Program-made: the position numbers and the translations under genes
Source of the DNA: Pseudomonas sediminis
GTDB taxonomy: Bacteria; Pseudomonadota; Gammaproteobacteria; Pseudomonadales; Pseudomonadaceae
Assembly (NCBI RefSeq): GCF_002741105.1
Contig: NZ_NIQU01000002.1
Coordinates: forward strand, 496,001-560,000
Direction: 5' to 3'
DNA: 64,000 nucleotides
Part shown: positions 8,676-43,692 of the stretch, piece after piece
How positions within the stretch are numbered: position 1 is the stretch's first letter
Layout of the letters: each line of letters opens with the position of its first letter
The notes under the pieces: generated by a model
The model's input: the letters and a program-made list of their open reading frames with translations, nothing else
The model's database searches: none
Told to the model about the DNA's origin: nothing

Positions 8676-8713
8676 TCACTCTCACCCGATTTCGTTGCAA
8701 GGAACCCATCTTA

Positions 8714-9748
8714 ATGAGCACCTCCCTTTACAGCATCGCCTTTGGTGTTGGCACCCAGAACCGCCAGGGCAACTGGCTGGAAGTCTTCTACGCCCTGCCG
8801 CTGCTCAACCCGGCCAGCGAGCTGGTGGCCAAGGCCGCCGAGAAGCTCGGCTATCAAGGCGGCAACCAGGCCATCACCTTTACCACTGCGCAAGCCGCCG
8901 ATCTGGCCGAAGCCCTGAAAGGCGTGGATGCTGCTCAAGCGGCGCTACTGACCCGCCTGGCCGAAAGCCACAACCCGCTGGTCGCCACCTTCCTGGCTGA
9001 AGATGCCGCGCTGACCAGCACCCCGGAGGCCTACCTCAAACTGCACCTGCTGTCGCATCGCCTGGTCAAGCCTCACGGCCTGAGCCTGGCAGGCATCTTC
9101 CCGCTGCTGCCCAACGTCGCCTGGACCAGCCAGGGCGCTGTCGACCTGAACGAGCTGGCCGAGCGCCAACTGGAAGCGCGCCTCAAAGGCGAGCTGCTGG
9201 AAGTGTTCTCGGTGGACAAGTTCCCGAAAATGACCGACTACGTGGTACCGGCCGGCGTGCGTATCGCCGATAGCGCCCGTGTGCGCCTGGGCGCCTATAT
9301 CGGCGAAGGCACCACCGTGATGCACGAAGGCTTCGTCAACTTCAACGGCGGCACCGAAGGCCCGGGCATGATCGAAGGCCGCGTTTCCGCTGGTGTATTC
9401 GTCGGCAAAGGTTCGGACCTGGGCGGCGGCTGCTCGACTATGGGTACCCTGTCCGGTGGTGGCAACATCATTATCAGCGTCGGCGAAGGCTGCCTGATCG
9501 GTGCCAACGCCGGTATCGGTATCCCGCTGGGCGACCGCAACACCGTCGAAGCCGGCCTGTACATCACCGCCGGCACCAAGGTGAACCTGCTCGACGAGGG
9601 CAACGCCCTGGTCAAGGTGGTCAAGGCACGCGACCTGGCTGGCCAGCCGGATCTGCTGTTCCGTCGCAACTCGCTGACCGGCGCCGTGGAGTGCAAGACC
9701 CACAAGTCGGCTATCGAGCTGAACGAAGCCCTGCACGCCCACAACTGA
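8714..9748 (+). CDS. dapD: Tetrahydrodipicolinate N-succinyltransferase
   Basis: DapD transfers succinyl from succinyl-CoA to tetrahydrodipicolinate, committing flux to the succinylase lysine/DAP route. The 344-residue form is the long DapD of pseudomonads and actinobacteria. The C-terminal half shows the left-handed beta-helix hexapeptide pattern (VRLGAYIGEGTTVMHEGFVN, then GVFVGKGSDLGGGCSTMGTLSGGG). An AAGGA site precedes the start. The stop codon touches the left arm of the inverted-repeat element at 9748. Confidence 0.95.
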   Translation: MSTSLYSIAFGVGTQNRQGNWLEVFYALPLLNPASELVAKAAEKLGYQGGNQAITFTTAQAADLAEALKGVDAAQAALLTRLAESHNPLVATFLAEDAALTSTPEAYLKLHLLSHRLVKPHGLSLAGIFPLLPNVAWTSQGAVDLNELAERQLEARLKGELLEVFSVDKFPKMTDYVVPAGVRIADSARVRLGAYIGEGTTVMHEGFVNFNGGTEGPGMIEGRVSAGVFVGKGSDLGGGCSTMGTLSGGGNIIISVGEGCLIGANAGIGIPLGDRNTVEAGLYITAGTKVNLLDEGNALVKVVKARDLAGQPDLLFRRNSLTGAVECKTHKSAIELNEALHAHN

Positions 9749-9903
9749 AAAGTTGGTTTAACGCTGCTGCGCTAGCCCATACTGCGTAGCAATAAGGCTC
9801 GGATCGGTCATTCAGATCAGTAAAGTCGCCCGCGACTCCGACCGTTCCTCGCCTTATTGCGCCTTGTCTGGCCTTCGCTCGCTAGACGTTAAACCCAACT
9901 TTT
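9748..9903. repeat. 156-bp element with nested inverted repeats
   Basis: The outer arms AAAAGTTGGTTTAACG (9748-9763) and its complement (9887-9903, with one extra base) bracket an inner pair GCAATAAGGC (9789-9798) and GCCTTATTGC (9851-9860). It overlaps the dapD stop codon and fills most of the dapD-csdA gap. I see no clear target-site repeat. It could be a mobile intergenic repeat or a structured RNA between two genes read in the same direction. Confidence 0.7.
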
Positions 9904-9931
9904 AACCGCCGGATGATCTCTGGAAGCATCC

Positions 9932-11137
9932 ATGTCACTGATCTCCCCCTGGCGTGCCGACTTTCCCGGCATTCTCGCCCTCGCAGCCGAAGGCCAGACC
10001 TACCTGGACAGCGCCGCCACTGCGCAAAAACCGCAGGCGGTGCTGGACGCTTTGCTCGGCTACCTAGCCAGCGGCGTGGCCAACGTGCATCGCGCCCAGC
10101 ATCTGCCAGGCGAGCGCGCCACTCGCGCCTTCGAGGCGACACGCAGCCAGGCGGCGCAGTGGCTGAATGCGGCCCGCGCCGAGGAGATCATCTTTACCCG
10201 CGGCACCACCGAATCATTGAACCTGCTGGCCTACGGCCTGGAGCACTTGCTACAGCCGGGCGAGCAGATCGTCATCAGCGCACTGGAACACCACGCCAAT
10301 CTGCTGCCCTGGCAACAACTGGCCAAGCGTCGCGGCCTGGAACTGGTGATCCTGCCGCTCGATGACGCCGGCAGCATCGACCTGCAACAAGCGGCCCGGC
10401 TGATCGGCACACGCACCCGCCTGCTGGCAGTTTCGCAACTGTCCAACGTACTAGGTCGCTGGCAGCCGCTGGACGAGCTACTGGCACTGGCGCGCACGCA
10501 AGGCGCTCTCACTGTGGTCGACGGCGCTCAGGGCGCGGTGCATGGTCGTCATGACCTGCAAGCGCTGGGCTGCGACTTCTACGTCTGTTCGTCACATAAG
10601 CTCTACGGCCCGGATGGCGTCGGCCTGCTATATGGCCGCCGCGAAGCGTTGGGCCAATTGCAGCACTGGCAATTCGGCGGCGAGATGGTGCTCGACGCCG
10701 ACTACCATGAGGCGCGCTTTCGCCCTGCTCCACTGGGTTTCGAGGCCGGTACACCGGCGGTTTCTGCGGTCATCGCGCTGGGCGCCGCACTGAACTGGCT
10801 GAACGGCCTGGATCACGCAGCCGTGGCACGTCATGAGGCGACCCTGCATGCCGAACTGCTGGCCGGCCTGCAGGCGCGTGACGGTGTTCGCCTGCTGGGC
10901 CAACCCCAATTGGCCCTGGCCAGCTTTTGTGTCGATGGCGTGCATAACGCCGACCTGGCGCACCTGCTCAGCGAACAGGGTATCGCCGTGCGCGCCGGGC
11001 ATCACTGCGCCATGCCGCTGATGAAAGGCCTCGGCCTGAGTGGTGCGATTCGCGTGTCGCTCGGCCTGTACAACGATGGCGAGGACCTGCAGCGCTTCTT
11101 CAGCGCCCTGGATAACGCCCTGGAGCTGTTGCGATGA
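9932..11137 (+). CDS. csdA: Cysteine desulfurase CsdA
   Basis: This 401-residue class V aminotransferase-fold enzyme takes sulfur from cysteine as a persulfide. The PLP lysine is K223 in SSHKLYGPDG and the persulfide cysteine is C359 in GHHCAMPLM, on the short SufS/CsdA-type loop. The partner csdE follows directly, which favours CsdA over SufS. With TcdA encoded at 13.1 kb it would supply the CSD system used for cyclic t6A formation. It lies after the 156-bp inverted-repeat element. Confidence 0.93.
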   Translation: MSLISPWRADFPGILALAAEGQTYLDSAATAQKPQAVLDALLGYLASGVANVHRAQHLPGERATRAFEATRSQAAQWLNAARAEEIIFTRGTTESLNLLAYGLEHLLQPGEQIVISALEHHANLLPWQQLAKRRGLELVILPLDDAGSIDLQQAARLIGTRTRLLAVSQLSNVLGRWQPLDELLALARTQGALTVVDGAQGAVHGRHDLQALGCDFYVCSSHKLYGPDGVGLLYGRREALGQLQHWQFGGEMVLDADYHEARFRPAPLGFEAGTPAVSAVIALGAALNWLNGLDHAAVARHEATLHAELLAGLQARDGVRLLGQPQLALASFCVDGVHNADLAHLLSEQGIAVRAGHHCAMPLMKGLGLSGAIRVSLGLYNDGEDLQRFFSALDNALELLR

Positions 11138-11156
11138 AATGCCGCCAATTGCTCGT

Positions 11157-11220
11157 TGTAGGAGCGGCTTCAGCCGCGAATATCGGTACCCGGACCATCG
11201 CGGCTGAAGCCGCTCCTACA
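11157..11220. repeat. Perfect palindrome between csdA and csdE
   Basis: Two perfectly complementary 23-bp arms (11157-11179 and 11198-11220; core GGAGCGGCTTCAGCCGC) surround an 18-nt loop. It separates two genes that are expected to be co-expressed, so it probably folds in the transcript and may make expression of csdA and csdE uneven. Confidence 0.88.
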
Positions 11221-11240
11221 TGCTACGGGAGTCTCTCGCC

Positions 11241-11654
11241 ATGAGTCTGCCAGTCGCCGCTCAGGAAGCACTGGCAGCCTTTGCCGCCTGCCTCGGCTGG
11301 GAACAGCGCGCGCGCCTGCTGATGCAATGGGGTGAGCGCCTGGCGCCATTGAGCGACGCCGAGCGGGTCGACGAGCACCGTGTGCATGGCTGCGAGAGCC
11401 TGGTCTGGCTGATCGCCGAGCGCAGCGGTGAACATCTGCACTTTCGCGCCAGTAGCGACGCTCGCCTGCTACGCGGCCTGCTTGCCGTATTGCTGGCGCG
11501 GGTCGATGGTCTGCCTCGCGCCGAGCTGGCCAGTGTCGATCTGGTCGACTGGTTCAACCAATTAGGACTGCAAAGACAACTGTCGCCATCACGCAGCAAT
11601 GGTCTCAATGCCGTGCTGCAGCGTATGCGCGAGCTGGCAGGTCGACCAGCCTAA
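11241..11654 (+). CDS. csdE: SufE-like sulfur acceptor CsdE
   Basis: The 137-residue SufE-domain protein has its acceptor cysteine C51 in the family motif HGCESLVWL, and ends with the SRSNGLNAVLQRM helix typical of SufE/CsdE. It accepts persulfide sulfur from CsdA and passes it on. The start at 11241 follows a GGGAGTC site; an ATG at 11220 lies inside the preceding palindrome and is rejected. It is convergent with the DUF1456 gene, only 25 bp apart. Confidence 0.92.
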   Translation: MSLPVAAQEALAAFAACLGWEQRARLLMQWGERLAPLSDAERVDEHRVHGCESLVWLIAERSGEHLHFRASSDARLLRGLLAVLLARVDGLPRAELASVDLVDWFNQLGLQRQLSPSRSNGLNAVLQRMRELAGRPA

Positions 11655-11679
11655 GCCGCACTCTTCGCGGGCGAAGCGG

Positions 11680-12150
11680 TCAGGCGCCTTTGCCCCGCTC
11701 ACGCAAGGTCAAACCCCGCAGGAAATTGCGCAGAATCTGGTCGCCGCACTCGCGAAAATGCTTGTGCCCCGGAGCCCGGAACAGCGCGCTGAGCTCGGTC
11801 TTGGTCATCGGCAGGTCAGCCGCTTGCAGAATGGACTGAATATCATCGTCACGCAGCTCGAAGGCCACGCGCAGCTTCTTCAGGATCAGGTTGTTGGTCA
11901 GACGCTTTTCCACCGGCAAGCGCGGCCGGCTGTCGTCCTTGCCACGCTTGTGGAACACCAGCCCTTCGAGCACGTGCGCCAACAGCACATCGTTGCACGA
12001 GCGATAGCCTGGCTCGTCCTCGTGCAACAGACAGGCCGAGATCAAACCCGGCTCGACGGGATAATCCGCCAACCGGCAGAGGTCTTCCAGCTTGGCGTCG
12101 CTGACGTCTAACAGATAGCGCAGGCTGCGCAGTACATCGTTATTGAGCAT
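11680..12150 (-). CDS. DUF1456 (YehS-like) protein
   Basis: This 156-residue protein shows the two-repeat architecture of DUF1456: MLNNDVLRSLRYLLDVSDAKLEDLC at the N-terminus is echoed by LILKKLRVAFELRDDDIQSIL at the centre. Function is unknown in E. coli YehS and here. The start at 12150 gives the family N-terminus MLNNDVLR; a longer frame exists upstream. No membrane segment or signal is visible, so it is probably cytoplasmic. It lies downstream of the periplasmic binding protein gene, same strand, with a 38-bp gap. Confidence 0.88.
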   Translation of the reverse strand: MLNNDVLRSLRYLLDVSDAKLEDLCRLADYPVEPGLISACLLHEDEPGYRSCNDVLLAHVLEGLVFHKRGKDDSRPRLPVEKRLTNNLILKKLRVAFELRDDDIQSILQAADLPMTKTELSALFRAPGHKHFRECGDQILRNFLRGLTLRERGKGA

Positions 12151-12188
12151 GCAAAAGACTCTTGAGAACGGAATTCGGCGAGTGCCGT

Positions 12189-13031
12189 TCAATCTCGCGC
12201 CAGCGGAGTTGACTGGCTGGGTTTCCAGTCATCGGCATCGCCGGAGTTGAGTGCCTGCTGCAGTCGCTGCAGATCACCACGGTTGGCGAACTCACGCAGC
12301 CCGGCATTGAACTTGCGCAACAGCATGACACTTTCCGGATCGTCCTTACGAAACAACAGGCGCAAAGGCTCTGTATTAAGCTGACGCGGATGGTGAATGA
12401 TGTTACCGCCGTCTTTTGGAAACAGCCGGCGCAACATGGCGTAACCCACCGCACGATCCTGCGGGTGCAAGTCGATGCGCCCCAGTTCAAGCAGACGGAA
12501 GCTGGTGTCTTCCTTGCCATTTTGCTCGACGTTGAGCCGACCGGCCTGCAACGCTGCATCGAACGCCGGGCCGTAGGAGTAACCCAGAGTCGTGCCAATA
12601 CGGTAGCTCAGTAAATCCTCGACCGTGGTCCAGTCGAACGCCTGCTCGCGACGATGGAACAGGACGATCTCTCCGCGCACCAGCGTGTCGCTACAAATCC
12701 CATAGTTGAGCCGGCTGGGCGTACAACTGTAGGGCATGATCGCGTGCAACTGTCCCTGCTGCAGCATCAGCACGTTGCGGTCCCAGGGACGAAAGACGTA
12801 CTCGACCTGATAGCCCGCCTCAGCAAAGACCGCGCTGATCAGACGCGCCAGAGCACCACCATCACTGCGCTGCTGATCGACGTAAGGCGCCCAGTCGCCG
12901 GTACCGATAAACAACTTCTGAGGTTCAGCCTGAACCGGTCCCATCGCCACCCACAACAAAGGCAACGTCAGGGAGGCGAACATCCGTGCCCAGCGTCTTT
13001 TCAGAGAGACGCTACAAAACAGGTACGACAC
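12189..13031 (-). CDS. Periplasmic solute-binding protein, family 3 type
   Basis: This 280-residue protein has a basic then hydrophobic N-terminus ending in PVQAEP, a likely Sec signal cleaved near residue 35, followed by an SBP_bac_3-like fold (GTGDWAPYVDQQRSDGGALARLISAVFAEAGYQVEYVFRPWDR). No permease or ATPase gene is adjacent. Such orphan family 3 proteins in Pseudomonas are usually of unknown ligand; some act as sensor or scavenging proteins rather than transporter parts. A start at the internal Met 17 is possible. Confidence 0.8.
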   Translation of the reverse strand: MSYLFCSVSLKRRWARMFASLTLPLLWVAMGPVQAEPQKLFIGTGDWAPYVDQQRSDGGALARLISAVFAEAGYQVEYVFRPWDRNVLMLQQGQLHAIMPYSCTPSRLNYGICSDTLVRGEIVLFHRREQAFDWTTVEDLLSYRIGTTLGYSYGPAFDAALQAGRLNVEQNGKEDTSFRLLELGRIDLHPQDRAVGYAMLRRLFPKDGGNIIHHPRQLNTEPLRLLFRKDDPESVMLLRKFNAGLREFANRGDLQRLQQALNSGDADDWKPSQSTPLARD

Positions 13032-34256: not shown

Positions 34257-35513
<1,257 letters not shown>

Positions 35514-38782: not shown

Positions 38783-40051
38783 CTACTGAGCGGCCTTGAT
38801 CGCCGCGTAGATCTGCGCGCCGGCCTTGCTCGGGTCGGCGTTCTTCTCGCTCATGAAGTTGGTCACCACATCGAAGATGGCGCCCTGCACGGCGAGGTTG
38901 GTGGCCATGCTGTGGGCCATGCTCGGTTCCAGCTTGCCGTTCTTGTCGGCCTCCTGGAAATCCTTCATCGAGGCCTGGGCGCAGCTGTCGAACTTGCTCA
39001 TGTCCAGGTCCGAGCGCACCGGGATCGAGCCCTTGTTCTCGTTGAACACGTACTGGAACTCAGGCTCCAGGGCGATCCGTGCCAGAGCGTGCTGGGCAGC
39101 GATGTCGCCTTCGTTCTTGAGCTTGAACATGGCCATGGAGTCGATGTTGTAGGTGTAGCTGCCGGCGGTGCCCGGCATCGGCACGCACTGGTAGTCCTTG
39201 CCCGCCACCTTGCCGGCGGCCGTCCATTCGCTCTTGGCCCAGTCGCCCATGATCTGCATGCCGGCCTTGCCGTCGATCACCTCGGCGGTGGCCAGGTTCC
39301 AGTCGCGCCCGGCGCGGTTGTCGTCCATGTAGGTGGAGAGCTTCTTCAGCGCGGTGAACACTTCGGTCATCTGCGCGCTGGTCAGGGTCGCCTCGTCGTT
39401 CTCGACGAACGCCTTGTGGAAGCCCTCGGCACCCATGATGCTCAGCACCAGGCCTTCGAACACGGTGCTGTCCTGCCAGGGCTGGCCGCCGTGGGCCAGC
39501 GGGATGAAGCCGGCAGCCTTGAGTTTGTCACCGGCAGCGTAGAGTTCGTCGAGGGTGGTCGGCGCCTTGTCGATGCCGGCCTTCTCGAACACCTGCGGGT
39601 TGATCCACAGCCAGTTGACCCGGTGGATGTTCACCGGCACCGCGACGTAGTGACCGTCGTACTGCATGGTCTTGGCCACGGTCTTCGACAGCAGGCCATC
39701 CCAGTCATTGGCCTGGGCCACTTCATCCAGTGGTGCAAGCAGATCCAACGCGCCCCACTCCTGCAAGTCGGGGCCTTTGATCTGCGCCGCCCCCGGCGGG
39801 TTGCCGGACACCACACGGGTCTTCAGCACGGTCATGGCGGCGGAACCGGCGCCACCGGCCACGGCGCCGTCCTTCCAGGTGAAACCATCCTTCTCGACCA
39901 GGTCACGCAGAACCTTCACCGCAGCAGCTTCACCACCGGAGGTCCACCAATGCACCACTTCCACCGTACCTTTGGAGTCGGCGGCCAGCGCGGCGAAGGG
40001 AAACAGGGAGGCGAGAGAAACGGCGGTAGCGAGGCGAGTAATAGCGTTCAT
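38783..40051 (-). CDS. gtsA: Periplasmic sugar-binding protein of the gts transporter
   Basis: This 422-residue family 1 solute-binding protein starts [23 protein letters not shown], a Sec signal cleaved near residue 24, followed by [22 protein letters not shown], the opening of glucose/mannose-binding proteins such as P. putida GtsA. The start at 40051 follows AAGG; an upstream ATG adds ten residues. It delivers sugar to GtsBC. The gap upstream contains a 39-bp element also found before the AGE gene, with a -10-like TACACT. Confidence 0.9.
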
Positions 40052-40105
40052 CGGAATACCTTTCTTGTTGTTATCGGGCAAGTCGTGGCGCTTGCGTTAA
40101 CAGGG

Positions 40106-40111
40106 AGTGTA
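40106..40111 (-). promoter_or_regulatory. Candidate -10 of gtsA
   Basis: On the minus strand TACACT lies exactly 21 nt downstream of the 39-bp element at 40133-40171. There is no good -35, which suits a promoter that needs an activator. Confidence 0.45.
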
Positions 40112-40132
40112 ATCAGGGTCGTTGCCGGCTCG

Positions 40133-40171
40133 GGTAACGAAAGGATGCATGAATGTCACCGCCTCGTTACA
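40133..40171 (-). promoter_or_regulatory. 39-bp shared element upstream of gtsA
   Basis: Read on the minus strand it is TGTAAC-N4-CGGTGACA-N10-CTTTCGTTACC. The copy at 41477-41515 has TGTCAC-N4-CGGTGACA-N10-CTTTCGTGACC with identical spacing. It contains three GTnAC half-sites. It overlaps the last codons of the AGE gene. GltR is the obvious candidate binder because its gene is in the locus, but this is inference. Confidence 0.65.
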
Positions 40172-41400
40172 TCGGCGGCAAGTGCCGTGGCCAGGCTCGG
40201 CGCTAGCGCCAGAGGCGGCAACAGCACGGCCTGGTAGGCGTGATAGAGATCGGGTTTGCCCGCCCAGATACGGGCGGCCGGCTGGTTGTGTTCATCGAGT
40301 TCGTGGTGCCAGCTACCGCCGTGCAGGTCGATGAAATGCTCGGTTATGAACGCCCAGCCCTGCCGATACCACTGCTCGTAGGCCGCTTCGCCGGTTCGCT
40401 GCACAAGCGCCGCCGCCGCCGCAACGGCCTCGGCATGCACCCAGTGCAGGCGTGCGCGAACCACCGGTTGCTGGTTCCAGTCGAGGCTGTAGACCAAGCC
40501 CGGCGCACCGTCGGCCTGCCAGGCATGCTGGCAGGCGCTGGCGAACAAGCCCTTGGCATCGATCAGCAGCCAGTCGGGCGCGGCGAGCACGGCCTTAGTC
40601 AGCGCCGCTTCCAGATGCAGCAGCAGGCGCGCCCACTCGAAAGCATGACCAGGCGTGCTGCCGTAGGGACGAAAGGGGTCGGCGCGGTTATCCGCGTTGT
40701 ACTCCGGCAGCGCCTGCCAGTGCGCATCGAAGTGCTCGACCACGACATGCCCGCACGCGGCGGCGTGCCGATGGATCAGGCGCTCGGCGATGCGCAGCGC
40801 GCGCTGCAACCAGAGCGCATTACCGGTGACATCGGCCAGGGCAAGAAAGGCCTCCACGCCATGCATGTTGCTGTTGGCGCCGCGGTAGGCCTCTTCATCA
40901 CGCCAGTCACGGTTGAAGCTCTCGCGCAGCGCGCCCTCCTCTTCGCTCCAGAAATGCCGCTCGATGATCTCGATAGCGTCATCGAGCAACGCCTGCGCGG
41001 CAGGACGACCAGCGACCCTGGCGGAGCTGGCCGCCAGCGCGACGAAGGCATGCAGGTAGGCGGACTTGCCGCCGCTGCGCGTCGCATCGGCGAACCAGCC
41101 GCCGTGCGCCTCGTCCCATAGCGCGCCGCGCAGTGCAGCAAGGCCATGGTCGACCAGCGCGGCATGGCCGGGAATGCCCTGGATATGTGCCAGGGCAAAG
41201 CAGTGGGTCATGCGCGTGGTGTGAATCAGCTCGGCAATCGCGCCTTCTGGCAAGCGCCCGTGCACATCGAGCGCGGCGAAGCCCTGCTCGACCTTCGCCC
41301 CGCGTGCGAACGGCAGCAGACGCAGGCATTCGTCATTCAGCCAGGTGAGGTGAGCGGGCTGACATAGCCAGCTGTCGGGGCGCCAGGCAGGTGCTTTCAC
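40156..41400 (-). CDS. AGE-family sugar epimerase/isomerase
   Basis: This 414-residue (alpha/alpha)6-barrel protein is of the N-acylglucosamine 2-epimerase family, which also includes mannose isomerase and YihS-type aldose-ketose isomerases. Segments such as TRMTHCFALAH, the ANSNMHGVEAFLAL helix, PFRPYGSTPGHAFEWARLLLHLE and WHHELDEHNQP are the usual active-site positions. The start is GTG at 41400 with GGAG seven bases upstream; an in-frame ATG at 41466 lies in promoter DNA. Within the sugar locus it may interconvert mannose and fructose or a similar pair before phosphorylation. Substrate unproven. Confidence 0.85.
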   Translation of the reverse strand: MKAPAWRPDSWLCQPAHLTWLNDECLRLLPFARGAKVEQGFAALDVHGRLPEGAIAELIHTTRMTHCFALAHIQGIPGHAALVDHGLAALRGALWDEAHGGWFADATRSGGKSAYLHAFVALAASSARVAGRPAAQALLDDAIEIIERHFWSEEEGALRESFNRDWRDEEAYRGANSNMHGVEAFLALADVTGNALWLQRALRIAERLIHRHAAACGHVVVEHFDAHWQALPEYNADNRADPFRPYGSTPGHAFEWARLLLHLEAALTKAVLAAPDWLLIDAKGLFASACQHAWQADGAPGLVYSLDWNQQPVVRARLHWVHAEAVAAAAALVQRTGEAAYEQWYRQGWAFITEHFIDLHGGSWHHELDEHNQPAARIWAGKPDLYHAYQAVLLPPLALAPSLATALAADVTRR

Positions 41401-41449
41401 GGTTGTGCTCCATACGCAGCGCGGCGTGATGCCGCTGGGTCGAAGCCGG

Positions 41450-41455
41450 ATTCTA
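41450..41455 (-). promoter_or_regulatory. Candidate -10 of the AGE gene
   Basis: TAGAAT on the minus strand lies exactly 21 nt downstream of the 39-bp element at 41477-41515, the same spacing as upstream of gtsA. The start codon is 50 bp further on. Confidence 0.45.
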
Positions 41456-41476
41456 GTCAGTGCCATCCGTGGCTCC

Positions 41477-41515
41477 GGTCACGAAAGCGCGCGCCTTTGT
41501 CACCGTTCGGTGACA
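41477..41515 (-). promoter_or_regulatory. 39-bp shared element upstream of the AGE gene
   Basis: This is the second copy of the element at 40133. Here its first half is a perfect palindrome, TGTCACCG-AA-CGGTGACA on the minus strand (41498-41515). It begins one base after the gtrS stop codon, so it could double as a weak transcript-end hairpin of gtrS, but the conserved distal CTTTCGT(G)ACC part argues for a protein-binding site. Confidence 0.65.
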
Positions 41516-41516
41516 T

Positions 41517-42968
41517 TCACTCCGGCGTACGCGGCAGACGCAGGGTGACGCGCAAGCCGCCCTCGCGCAGGTTACGCAGGCTGACTTCACCACCATGGCT
41601 GTGGGCAATGTTGCGCGCGATGCCGAGGCCCAGGCCGTAGCCCTGCTGCTGCCCGGCCAGGCGAAAATGCGGCTCGAACACCTGTTCCAGGCGTTGCTCC
41701 GGCACACCTGGGCCGTCGTCATCGACATGCAGGACGAAGGCTGCGTTGTCGTCCTCGATATGCAGATGCGCGTTGTGCCCGTACTTCAAGGCGTTGTCGA
41801 TCAGGTTGCCAATGCAGCGGCGCAGCGCCAGCGGCTTGCCCGGATACGGCGCGCAGGCCTCGCCATCGAGGGTCACGCGGCCATTGCCTGCCGGCGCCAG
41901 GCAGGGTTCGACCAGACAATGCAGGAGGTGGTTGAGGTCCACCGGCTCGATGTTCTCGTGAATGTCGGTGTCCTTCACGCACTGCAGGGCACCTTTGACC
42001 AGCAGCTCGAGGTCATCCAGATCACGACCGAACTTGGTCTGCAGACTTTCGTCGTCGAGCAGTTCGACGCGCAGGCGCAGACGCGTGATGGGTGTGCGCA
42101 GGTCATGGGAAATAGCGCTGAACAGCTGGCTGCGCTCGGTCAGGTAGCGGCTGATGCGCTCGCGCATGGCATTGAAGGCGCGGGCCACCTCGACCACTTC
42201 GCGGCCGCCTCCCTCGGCCACCGGCTCCACCTCGGCGCCCAGCGACATATGCCGCGCGGTGCGCGCCAGGCGCTTGAGCGGGCGGCTCTGCAGGTGCACC
42301 AGCAGACCGATGAACAGCAGCAGGAAAGCCGTGGTCAGCAGGATGAACCACAGCTGCTGGGTCGGCAGGATAGGTTCTTCCAGGCTGGTGTAGGGTTCGG
42401 GCAGCAACGAGGCGATGTACAGCCACTCCCCCGGCGCCAGCTGGATCTGCGTCACCAACACGGGCGGATTGACCGGCTCCAGAGTCAGCGCGTAATGCGC
42501 CCAGGAACGTGGCAGCTCGTCGAGTTTCAGGCCGCCGTTGAAGATGCGCAGGTCATCCGGGCTGACGAAGGTCACCGAGATGTCCGCGGCGGTGCCCAGC
42601 GACTGGTGCAGCACCTCGGCCACCGCCTCGGTCACCGCCTGCTTGCGCGGCGTGGCCGGCAGCAACTCCATCTGCAGCGGACGATCATTGAGGCTGACCA
42701 CGAAGCGCGTGCCACCCATGCTACGCAACTGATCGAGCACCAGCGGCCGATACGCCACCGGCAGCGAGCGGAAGTAACGCACGCTGGCGGACATCGAATG
42801 CGCCAGGCTGCGCGCAGTGGTGACCAGGCCTTCGAGCTGGGTGGCGCGCAGTTGCGACAGCCAGATCACGCTGGACAGCGTCTGCGCCGCCAATATCGCC
42901 AGCAAGGTGAGCAGCAGCATGCGCCCGAGCAGCGAGCGCGGCAGCCAGCGCCGCGGGTTAACGCCCAT
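41517..42968 (-). CDS. gtrS: Sensor histidine kinase GtrS
   Basis: The 483-residue kinase has two transmembrane helices (about 14-38 and 206-226) enclosing a periplasmic sensor region, a HAMP segment (228-280), the phospho-acceptor H288 in SAISHDLRTP, the N-box NLIDNALKYG and G-boxes DDGPGVPE and GYGLGLGIA. In P. aeruginosa the homologous GtrS senses 2-ketogluconate/6-phosphogluconate and controls glucose genes with GltR. The start at 42968 (MGVNPRRWLPRSLLGRM) overlaps the gltR end by 11 bp. It lies downstream of gltR and upstream of the AGE gene. Confidence 0.9.
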   Translation of the reverse strand: MGVNPRRWLPRSLLGRMLLLTLLAILAAQTLSSVIWLSQLRATQLEGLVTTARSLAHSMSASVRYFRSLPVAYRPLVLDQLRSMGGTRFVVSLNDRPLQMELLPATPRKQAVTEAVAEVLHQSLGTAADISVTFVSPDDLRIFNGGLKLDELPRSWAHYALTLEPVNPPVLVTQIQLAPGEWLYIASLLPEPYTSLEEPILPTQQLWFILLTTAFLLLFIGLLVHLQSRPLKRLARTARHMSLGAEVEPVAEGGGREVVEVARAFNAMRERISRYLTERSQLFSAISHDLRTPITRLRLRVELLDDESLQTKFGRDLDDLELLVKGALQCVKDTDIHENIEPVDLNHLLHCLVEPCLAPAGNGRVTLDGEACAPYPGKPLALRRCIGNLIDNALKYGHNAHLHIEDDNAAFVLHVDDDGPGVPEQRLEQVFEPHFRLAGQQQGYGLGLGIARNIAHSHGGEVSLRNLREGGLRVTLRLPRTPE

Positions 42969-43692
42969 CGCCGGCCTGCAGGCTGACCGTGGCCGCCAGT
43001 TGATAGCCGCTGCCACGCACGGTGCGAATCAGCCGCGGCGGCTTGTCGGTATCGCGCAGGCGCTGGCGCAGGCGGCTGACGGCCATGTCGACGATGCGCT
43101 CCAGCGGCATCACCTCGCGGCCACGGGTGGCGTTACCGATGGTGTCGCGGTCGAGAATCTGCTGCGGGTGGTCGAGAAACAGTTTGAGCAGGGCGAAGTC
43201 GGCGCCGGACAGAATCACCTCCTCGCCGTCACGGTGAAACAACCGATGGCTGACCATGTCCAGGCGCCAGTCCTCGAAGGCCAGCACCTCGCCGCTGCGC
43301 TCCTGGGTGAACTGCGCGCGGCGCAGCAAGGCCTTGATCCGCGCCAGCAATTCGCGCGGGCTGAATGGCTTGCCGAGGTAGTCGTCGGCGCCCAGCTCCA
43401 GGCCGATCACGCGGTCGGCTTCGTCGGAGCTGGCGGTGAGCATGATGATCGGCACCTGGGCGAAGCGTTGGTGCTCGCGCACCCAGCGGCACAGGCTGAA
43501 GCCGTCCTCGTCGGGCAGCATCACATCGAGAATCACCAGGTCGGCCGACTCCGCACACAGGCTCTGGCGGAAGGCGGCGCCATCGGCCACGGCGCGCACC
43601 TGAAAGCCAACGCGGCTCAGGTAGGTATCGAGCAGTTCGCGAATTTCCTGATCGTCATCGACCAGCAGAATCGATTTGCCGGGCTGGCTCAT
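42958..43692 (-). CDS. gltR: OmpR-type response regulator GltR
   Basis: This 244-residue regulator has a receiver domain with acidic pocket D12/D13, phospho-acceptor D56 (VILDVMLPDE) and switch K (LGKPFSPRELLARI), then a winged-helix OmpR domain (about 145-235, ending PRLIRTVRGSGYQL). With GtrS it controls glucose transport and Entner-Doudoroff genes in Pseudomonas. It overlaps gtrS and is separated from glk by a REP palindrome. Confidence 0.92.
   Translation of the reverse strand: MSQPGKSILLVDDDQEIRELLDTYLSRVGFQVRAVADGAAFRQSLCAESADLVILDVMLPDEDGFSLCRWVREHQRFAQVPIIMLTASSDEADRVIGLELGADDYLGKPFSPRELLARIKALLRRAQFTQERSGEVLAFEDWRLDMVSHRLFHRDGEEVILSGADFALLKLFLDHPQQILDRDTIGNATRGREVMPLERIVDMAVSRLRQRLRDTDKPPRLIRTVRGSGYQLAATVSLQAGDGR

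Follow-up and report, generated by a model that had tools for sequence, protein, structure and literature searches.

The closest described system is the GltR regulon of Pseudomonas aeruginosa. In that species it was reported by others that GltR is phosphorylated by GtrS and that the glucose-binding protein GltB (GtsA) activates GtrS-GltR. According to the accessible sections of PMC7927077, ChIP-seq of GltR yielded the motif GTNACAAA with gltB (= gtsA) as the top peak, glucose induction was 64.5-fold and required gtrS-gltR, deletion of GTGACAAA abolished this induction, and GltR binding at gltB was improved by phosphorylation. Publications are at odds over GltR, some treating it as an activator and others as a repressor of glucose-uptake genes. 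In an earlier study, the start at the importer promoter was measured by primer extension; relative to the measured start, the GltR site spans -22 to -10, and GltR is described in that study as a repressor. As given in PMC7927077, GltR protected two blocks at gltB, one from -44 to -13 and one from -11 to +15, with the site beginning at -22.

We analyzed a stretch of 64,000 nucleotides from Pseudomonas sediminis (contig NZ_NIQU01000002.1, positions 496,001 to 560,000), hereafter the window. Its sugar locus reads, on the minus strand, glk, gltR, gtrS, one copy of a 39-bp element (copy 2), an AGE-family gene, a second copy of the element (copy 1), gtsA, gtsB, gtsC, gtsD and a LamB-type porin gene, where gts names were taken from homology, synteny and literature. 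The gltR gene (42958..43692, minus strand) encodes an OmpR-type response regulator (Pfam Response_reg and Trans_reg_C), which is the predicted binder of the element, and gtrS (41517..43016, minus strand) encodes a sensor kinase (Pfam HAMP, HisKA and HATPase_c) whose stop codon immediately precedes copy 2. The AGE gene (40156..41400, minus strand, with a likely GTG start at 41400 judging from the sequence) had been labelled an AGE-epimerase in the initial annotation; this label has to be replaced by predicted D-mannose isomerase, as the protein scored 692 bits against NF051846, for which the curated cut-off is 600. The first gene past copy 1, gtsA (gltB; 38783..40051, minus strand), encodes the sugar-binding protein of an ABC importer (Pfam SBP_bac_1) and had its closest named relative, among the matches listed, in Pseudomonas composti (99%). 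The porin gene closing the gts genes (34257-35498) is of the LamB type (Pfam LamB, 400 bits), and a LamB-type porin at the gts genes is likewise reported for P. stutzeri A1501 in the part of that source that was accessible.

The pattern TGTMAC-N4-CGGTGACA-N10-CTTTCGTKACC was found with 0 mismatches at both places proposed by the initial annotation, always on the minus strand and with identical spacing: copy 1 (40133..40171) in the gtsA promoter and copy 2 (41477..41515) in the AGE promoter, for 0 matches expected from 100 shuffles. Scanning the whole 4.88-Mb genome with up to 3 mismatches returned the two window copies only, with 0 matches for the reversed control. As had been read from the sequence, a -10-like hexamer begins 21 nt past each copy (TACACT at 40106..40111, predicted start ~40099; TAGAAT at 41450..41455, predicted start ~41443; both minus strand), and the claimed lack of a -35 held as well, since the best candidate at the window copies matched TTGACA at 2/6 (spacers 15-19). 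We also built a 39-column sequence model (A1) from 46 sequences; both window copies were among them and therefore match it by construction (E 2.1e-9 for copy 1 and 2.0e-7 for copy 2). In the genome itself, the next match was the inverted repeat of copy 2 on the opposite strand (E 0.013), followed by partial ones at E 0.08 on C14 and E 0.6 on C10, and all matches beyond the two copies up to E 10 were partial. This search addressed sites with the full 39-column array and may miss weak ones, since 150 of 2247 candidates were scored in the model's initial step. At other P. aeruginosa promoters, GltR sites lacking the array have been reported.

Numbering the element from 1 to 39 along the minus strand, the pentamer GTNAC occupies positions 2-6, 13-17 and 34-38, which we call sites 1, 2 and 4 (40166-40170, 40155-40159 and 40134-40138 in copy 1; 41510-41514, 41499-41503 and 41478-41482 in copy 2). 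In gtsA copies a fourth position, GCRTC at 24-28, was conserved (109/132; C25 0.99, T27 0.98, C28 1.00) and reads GCATC in copy 1 (site 3, 40144-40148), so that the earlier statement that N10 differs freely fails for gtsA copies and stands for the 93 AGE copies, where positions 24-28 were not conserved. The sites thus start at 2, 13, 24 (in gtsA copies) and 34, spaced by 11, 11 and 10 bp, a subsite spacing of about 10.5-11 bp as asked of a class II activator site of the OmpR/PhoB family. Regarding a direct-repeat orientation, the flanks of sites 1 and 2 make an inverted repeat (TGTMAC-N6-GTGACA), and GTNAC is its own complement and therefore gives no orientation for the bound subunits. Per base, the gtsA element carried a mean information of 1.37 bits, compared with 0.20 in the DNA upstream of it (32 non-redundant sequences); for the AGE element the values were 1.23 and 0.36 (36 non-redundant sequences).

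The distance from position 39 to the -10 was nearly constant: 21 nt in 114/132 gtsA copies (20 in 17 and 22 in 1) and 21 nt in 76/93 AGE copies (20 in 16 and 22 in 1), which places site 4 about 22 nt from the hexamer. No -35 matching better than 3/6 (spacers 16-18) was detected in 78 gtsA-type and 52 AGE-type promoters, the two of this genome included. The proximal subsite therefore sits where the -35 is missing and at a near-constant distance from the -10, as in class II activation; assuming a start 7 nt past the -10, site 4 would be centred at about -37 and site 2 at about -58. The few departures in spacing preserved whole helical turns: sites 2 and 4 were 20 instead of 21 bp apart in the gtsA promoters of two genomes (G012 and G099) and 10 bp apart in one AGE promoter (G051), with the 21 nt to the -10 kept in all three.

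Allowing up to 3 mismatches, a scan of related genomes found the element in 50 of 95 genomes including this one, namely 49/58 other genomes of the same genus and 0/36 genomes from other families of the order, with 0 for the reversed control throughout. Among 80 named loci around gtsA, which are the best 80 of at least 591 candidates, GTNAC-N6-GTNAC-N16-GTNAC preceded gtsA in 77; the exceptions (L043, L045 and L049) are gtsA relatives that had no gltR, gtrS or gtsB match in the locus. An even sample of 149 genomes of the genus gave 140 gtsA loci read at at least 66% identity (that of the window plus 139 others), comprising 134 GltR-type loci and 6 paralogs without linked regulator genes. All 134 GltR-type loci carried the element at the gtsA/gltB promoter: 114 had the three pentamers at standard spacing, and 20 had an altered core base or spacer, with site 2 reading ATGAC (16) or CTGAC (2) at standard spacing in 18 and a spacer shorter by one base in the remaining 2 (G012 and G099). 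It was absent from all 6 paralogs, and the other gtsA copy in each of those genomes had it. The outcome named as refuting, loss of the blocks while the flanking code is conserved, did not occur, the element being kept genus-wide. All 15 sampled genomes that had no orthologous gtsA also had no GltR at E<=1e-75, and their best match to the array model reached E 0.0081 (first look of 150 candidates per genome).

Several irregular loci were recorded along the way. A second, element-less gtsA occurs in six genomes (L135, L151, L160, L178, L185 and L186). In G051 (L134), the gtsA element was kept and only a C-terminal piece of gltR (residues 127-236, beside gtrS) was found; positions 8690-12532 of this locus are rearranged, with a second partial AGE gene (residues 10-321) between a partial glk and the gltR piece, and an assembly fault is possible since the genome has 9% contamination. 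In another genome (G037, L136 2135-2152), a lone TGTCAC-N6-GTGACA inverted repeat, i.e. sites 1 and 2 only, lies away from the sugar locus. Among loci close to the query, TGTAAC appeared in gtsA copies only where an AGE gene precedes (53/55 vs 0/23); this tie was discarded after the even sample gave 73/98 vs 16/34.

The AGE gene was carried by 98 loci of the even sample, one of which (L184) is truncated where its contig stops, leaving 97 readable AGE promoters. The element was found at standard spacing in 93 of them. Of the other four, one (G051) has GTTAC one turn nearer site 2 and keeps the 21 nt to the -10; two (G156 and G122) retain the distal inverted repeat only, in genomes whose gltR was detected on a different contig (at 87% and 85% identity, respectively); and one (G149, L154) has no element. 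The AGE copy could be left over from a promoter duplication that accompanied the arrival of the AGE gene in the locus, having little effect while GltR activates gtsA, and the lack of a conserved site 3 in AGE copies, together with the partial or complete loss of the element in G156, G122 and G149, would fit such an origin. We consider this unlikely, given that sites 1, 2 and 4 and the distance to the -10 persist in 93/97 AGE promoters while the rest diverges. Downstream, the end of the AGE gene and the gtsA operator share bases, as GTAAC and GTGAC contain stop codons: the AGE stop codon lay within the gtsA element in 90/98 AGE-bearing loci, as TAA at positions 3-5 in 52, TGA at 14-16 in 36 and TGA at 11-13 in 2. 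The window belongs to the 14-16 type, with its TGA at 40156-40158 (minus strand) within copy 1.

Beyond the promoter, the gtsA leader (40065..40095, minus strand) contains a GCAAG/CTTGC inverted repeat (40078-40095) and, before the ribosome-binding site, the CA motif ATAACAACAA (40065-40074), where Hfq/Crc are predicted to bind. The repeat was present in 128/134 loci and the CA motif, mostly as ATAACAACAA, in 133/134. The leaders of several element-less gtsA paralogs also still carry a AACAACAA-type motif. In relatives, the accessible parts of two papers report repression of a gtsA fusion by Hfq in P. stutzeri (PMC11332353) and cite Hfq/Crc sites at gtsA in P. putida (PMC12533007). Given these reports and the conserved leader motifs, expression of the importer likely requires signalling through GltR as well as release from Crc-Hfq.

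The initial annotation had named GltR, encoded in the locus, as the first candidate binder. The co-occurrence of gltR with the element supports this choice, as does the P. aeruginosa motif GTNACAAA, taken from the accessible part of PMC7927077: site 2 of copy 2 followed by AAA is GTGACAAA and matches the motif at 7/7 (copy 2 itself lacks the conserved site 3), and the best match in copy 1 is GTAACGAA (6/7). No DAP-seq work on GltR was found in the literature searched. Alternatively, another sugar-catabolism regulator could bind the element, and a PtxR-like stretch does match at 8/11 in copy 2. It falls within the segment that lacks conservation among AGE copies and reaches 6/11 in copy 1, however, and using consensus sequences from the literature, the 14-base PtxS consensus was matched at no more than 8/14 and that of GntR at no more than 7/12. 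The HexR consensus was matched at no more than 5/8. We regard this alternative as the least probable of all those considered here. The element is real and strongly conserved, and on sequence grounds it is most likely an operator of GltR. Speaking against this are G051, which retains the gtsA element with only a piece of gltR, the AGE promoters of G149, G156 and G122, and the start measured in P. aeruginosa. The activator-dependent layout proposed initially is likewise backed by genus-wide conservation, the near-constant -10 distance and the absence of a -35. Both copies are very probably instances of one conserved operator, with phosphorylated GltR as predicted binder and class II activator of gtsA and AGE; binding and activation by GltR in this genome are what we infer from these data.

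The geometry of the element bears directly on the P. aeruginosa start site. If the GTGAC of the published site is site 2 (position 13), the two footprints run from position -9 to 22 and from 24 to 49 and cover sites 1 and 2 and sites 3 and 4, respectively, split at position 23. This alignment would put the -10 around +27 to +32 and the true start around +39 (+/-2), so that the published start would be about 39 nt too far upstream. Because that start was measured by primer extension, the conflict with the geometry of the element is a real one. The published 14-mer aligned best at position 13 in 145/225 elements, with up to 12/14 letters. Among 398 genomes of the genus, 11 contain the 14-mer of PMC7927077 and none of the 11 3-kb loci around it contains gtsA; the footprint comparison therefore rests on the published coordinates. 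We thus predict a shift of about 39 nt for the published gltB start, which would favor an activator over a repressor. The P. aeruginosa gltB promoter should then have GTNAC 11 bp before GTGACAAA, TTCGTTAC starting 18 bp past the first base of GTGACAAA, and TAnnnT 21-22 nt beyond.

The opposing model (Daddaoua et al. 2014), in which GltR is a repressor that leaves upon phosphorylation, draws on the primer-extension start and on in vitro transcription reported for the P. aeruginosa importer promoter in the portion of that work that was accessible. Here, the element is followed downstream by a conserved -10 and takes the place of the -35, and the accessible text of PMC7927077 has a gtrS-gltR deletion losing glucose induction and phosphorylation improving binding. 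The tgGTTTTTc operator (PMC4081096) concerns the same regulator and, according to the accessible part of PMC7927077, the same importer promoter DNA; its consensus (GGTTTTTC) was found in neither copy, the best match being 5/8 over both strands of either 81-nt promoter stretch. PMC7927077 further gives, in that same part, the importer site of the tgGTTTTTc study as GTGAAAAACCGGA in the strain sequence and GTGACAAACCCGGA in the reference, and we found GGTTTTTC in the reverse complement of GTGAAAAACCGGA but not of GTGACAAACCCGGA. Taken together, we judge the repressor model highly improbable, and only slightly less so than binding by another sugar-catabolism regulator.

For activation by GltR, one dimer would cover sites 1 and 2 and a second dimer sites 3 and 4, and the proximal dimer near -37, in place of a -35, would recruit sigma-70 RNA polymerase; a glucose signal through GtrS-GltR would then raise the importer and the isomerase together in this species. 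In its most complete form, this reading combines an activator array of four helically phased positions for two dimers, a published start that is off by about 39 nt, GltR acting here as activator only, and a copy of the array at AGE with a pentamer doubling as stop codon; we see the chances for and against this whole combination as evenly balanced. Under the same reading, the array would have been copied to the mannose-isomerase gene, and one glucose sensor would thereby command two sugars, the predicted mannose isomerase joining the targets of the sensor. The operator geometry predicts the true gltB/gtsA start, and an operator found genus-wide with a near-fixed -10 distance makes the activator or repressor question directly testable. 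The kind of operator was already known; the full array, its presence at the AGE promoter and its overlap with the stop codon are apparently new, with no report of them found in the accessible portions of the open-licence literature. The predicted shift of the gltB start is apparently new as well. We also found no report there of a link between GltR and mannose isomerase.

Compared with known systems, the GltR site of P. aeruginosa gltB, as given in the accessible part of PMC7927077, lies in a promoter at the orthologous position and has the same arrangement of GTNAC followed by A/T-rich bases, and the GltR-dependent activation by glucose reported there is the one predicted here. Its published form is an 8-base motif inside two footprints, whereas the present element is a complete 39-bp array that keeps a fixed distance from the -10 and occurs at a second promoter, that of AGE. 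The ArcA operators of E. coli, following the accessible text of PMC3798270, are alike in being bound by an OmpR/PhoB-family regulator with long footprints and in containing two to five elements at intervals of about 11 or 22 bp. The ArcA elements are direct repeats in variable number, in contrast to the array described here, which is fixed and whose outer two sites (1 and 2) are arranged as an inverted repeat.
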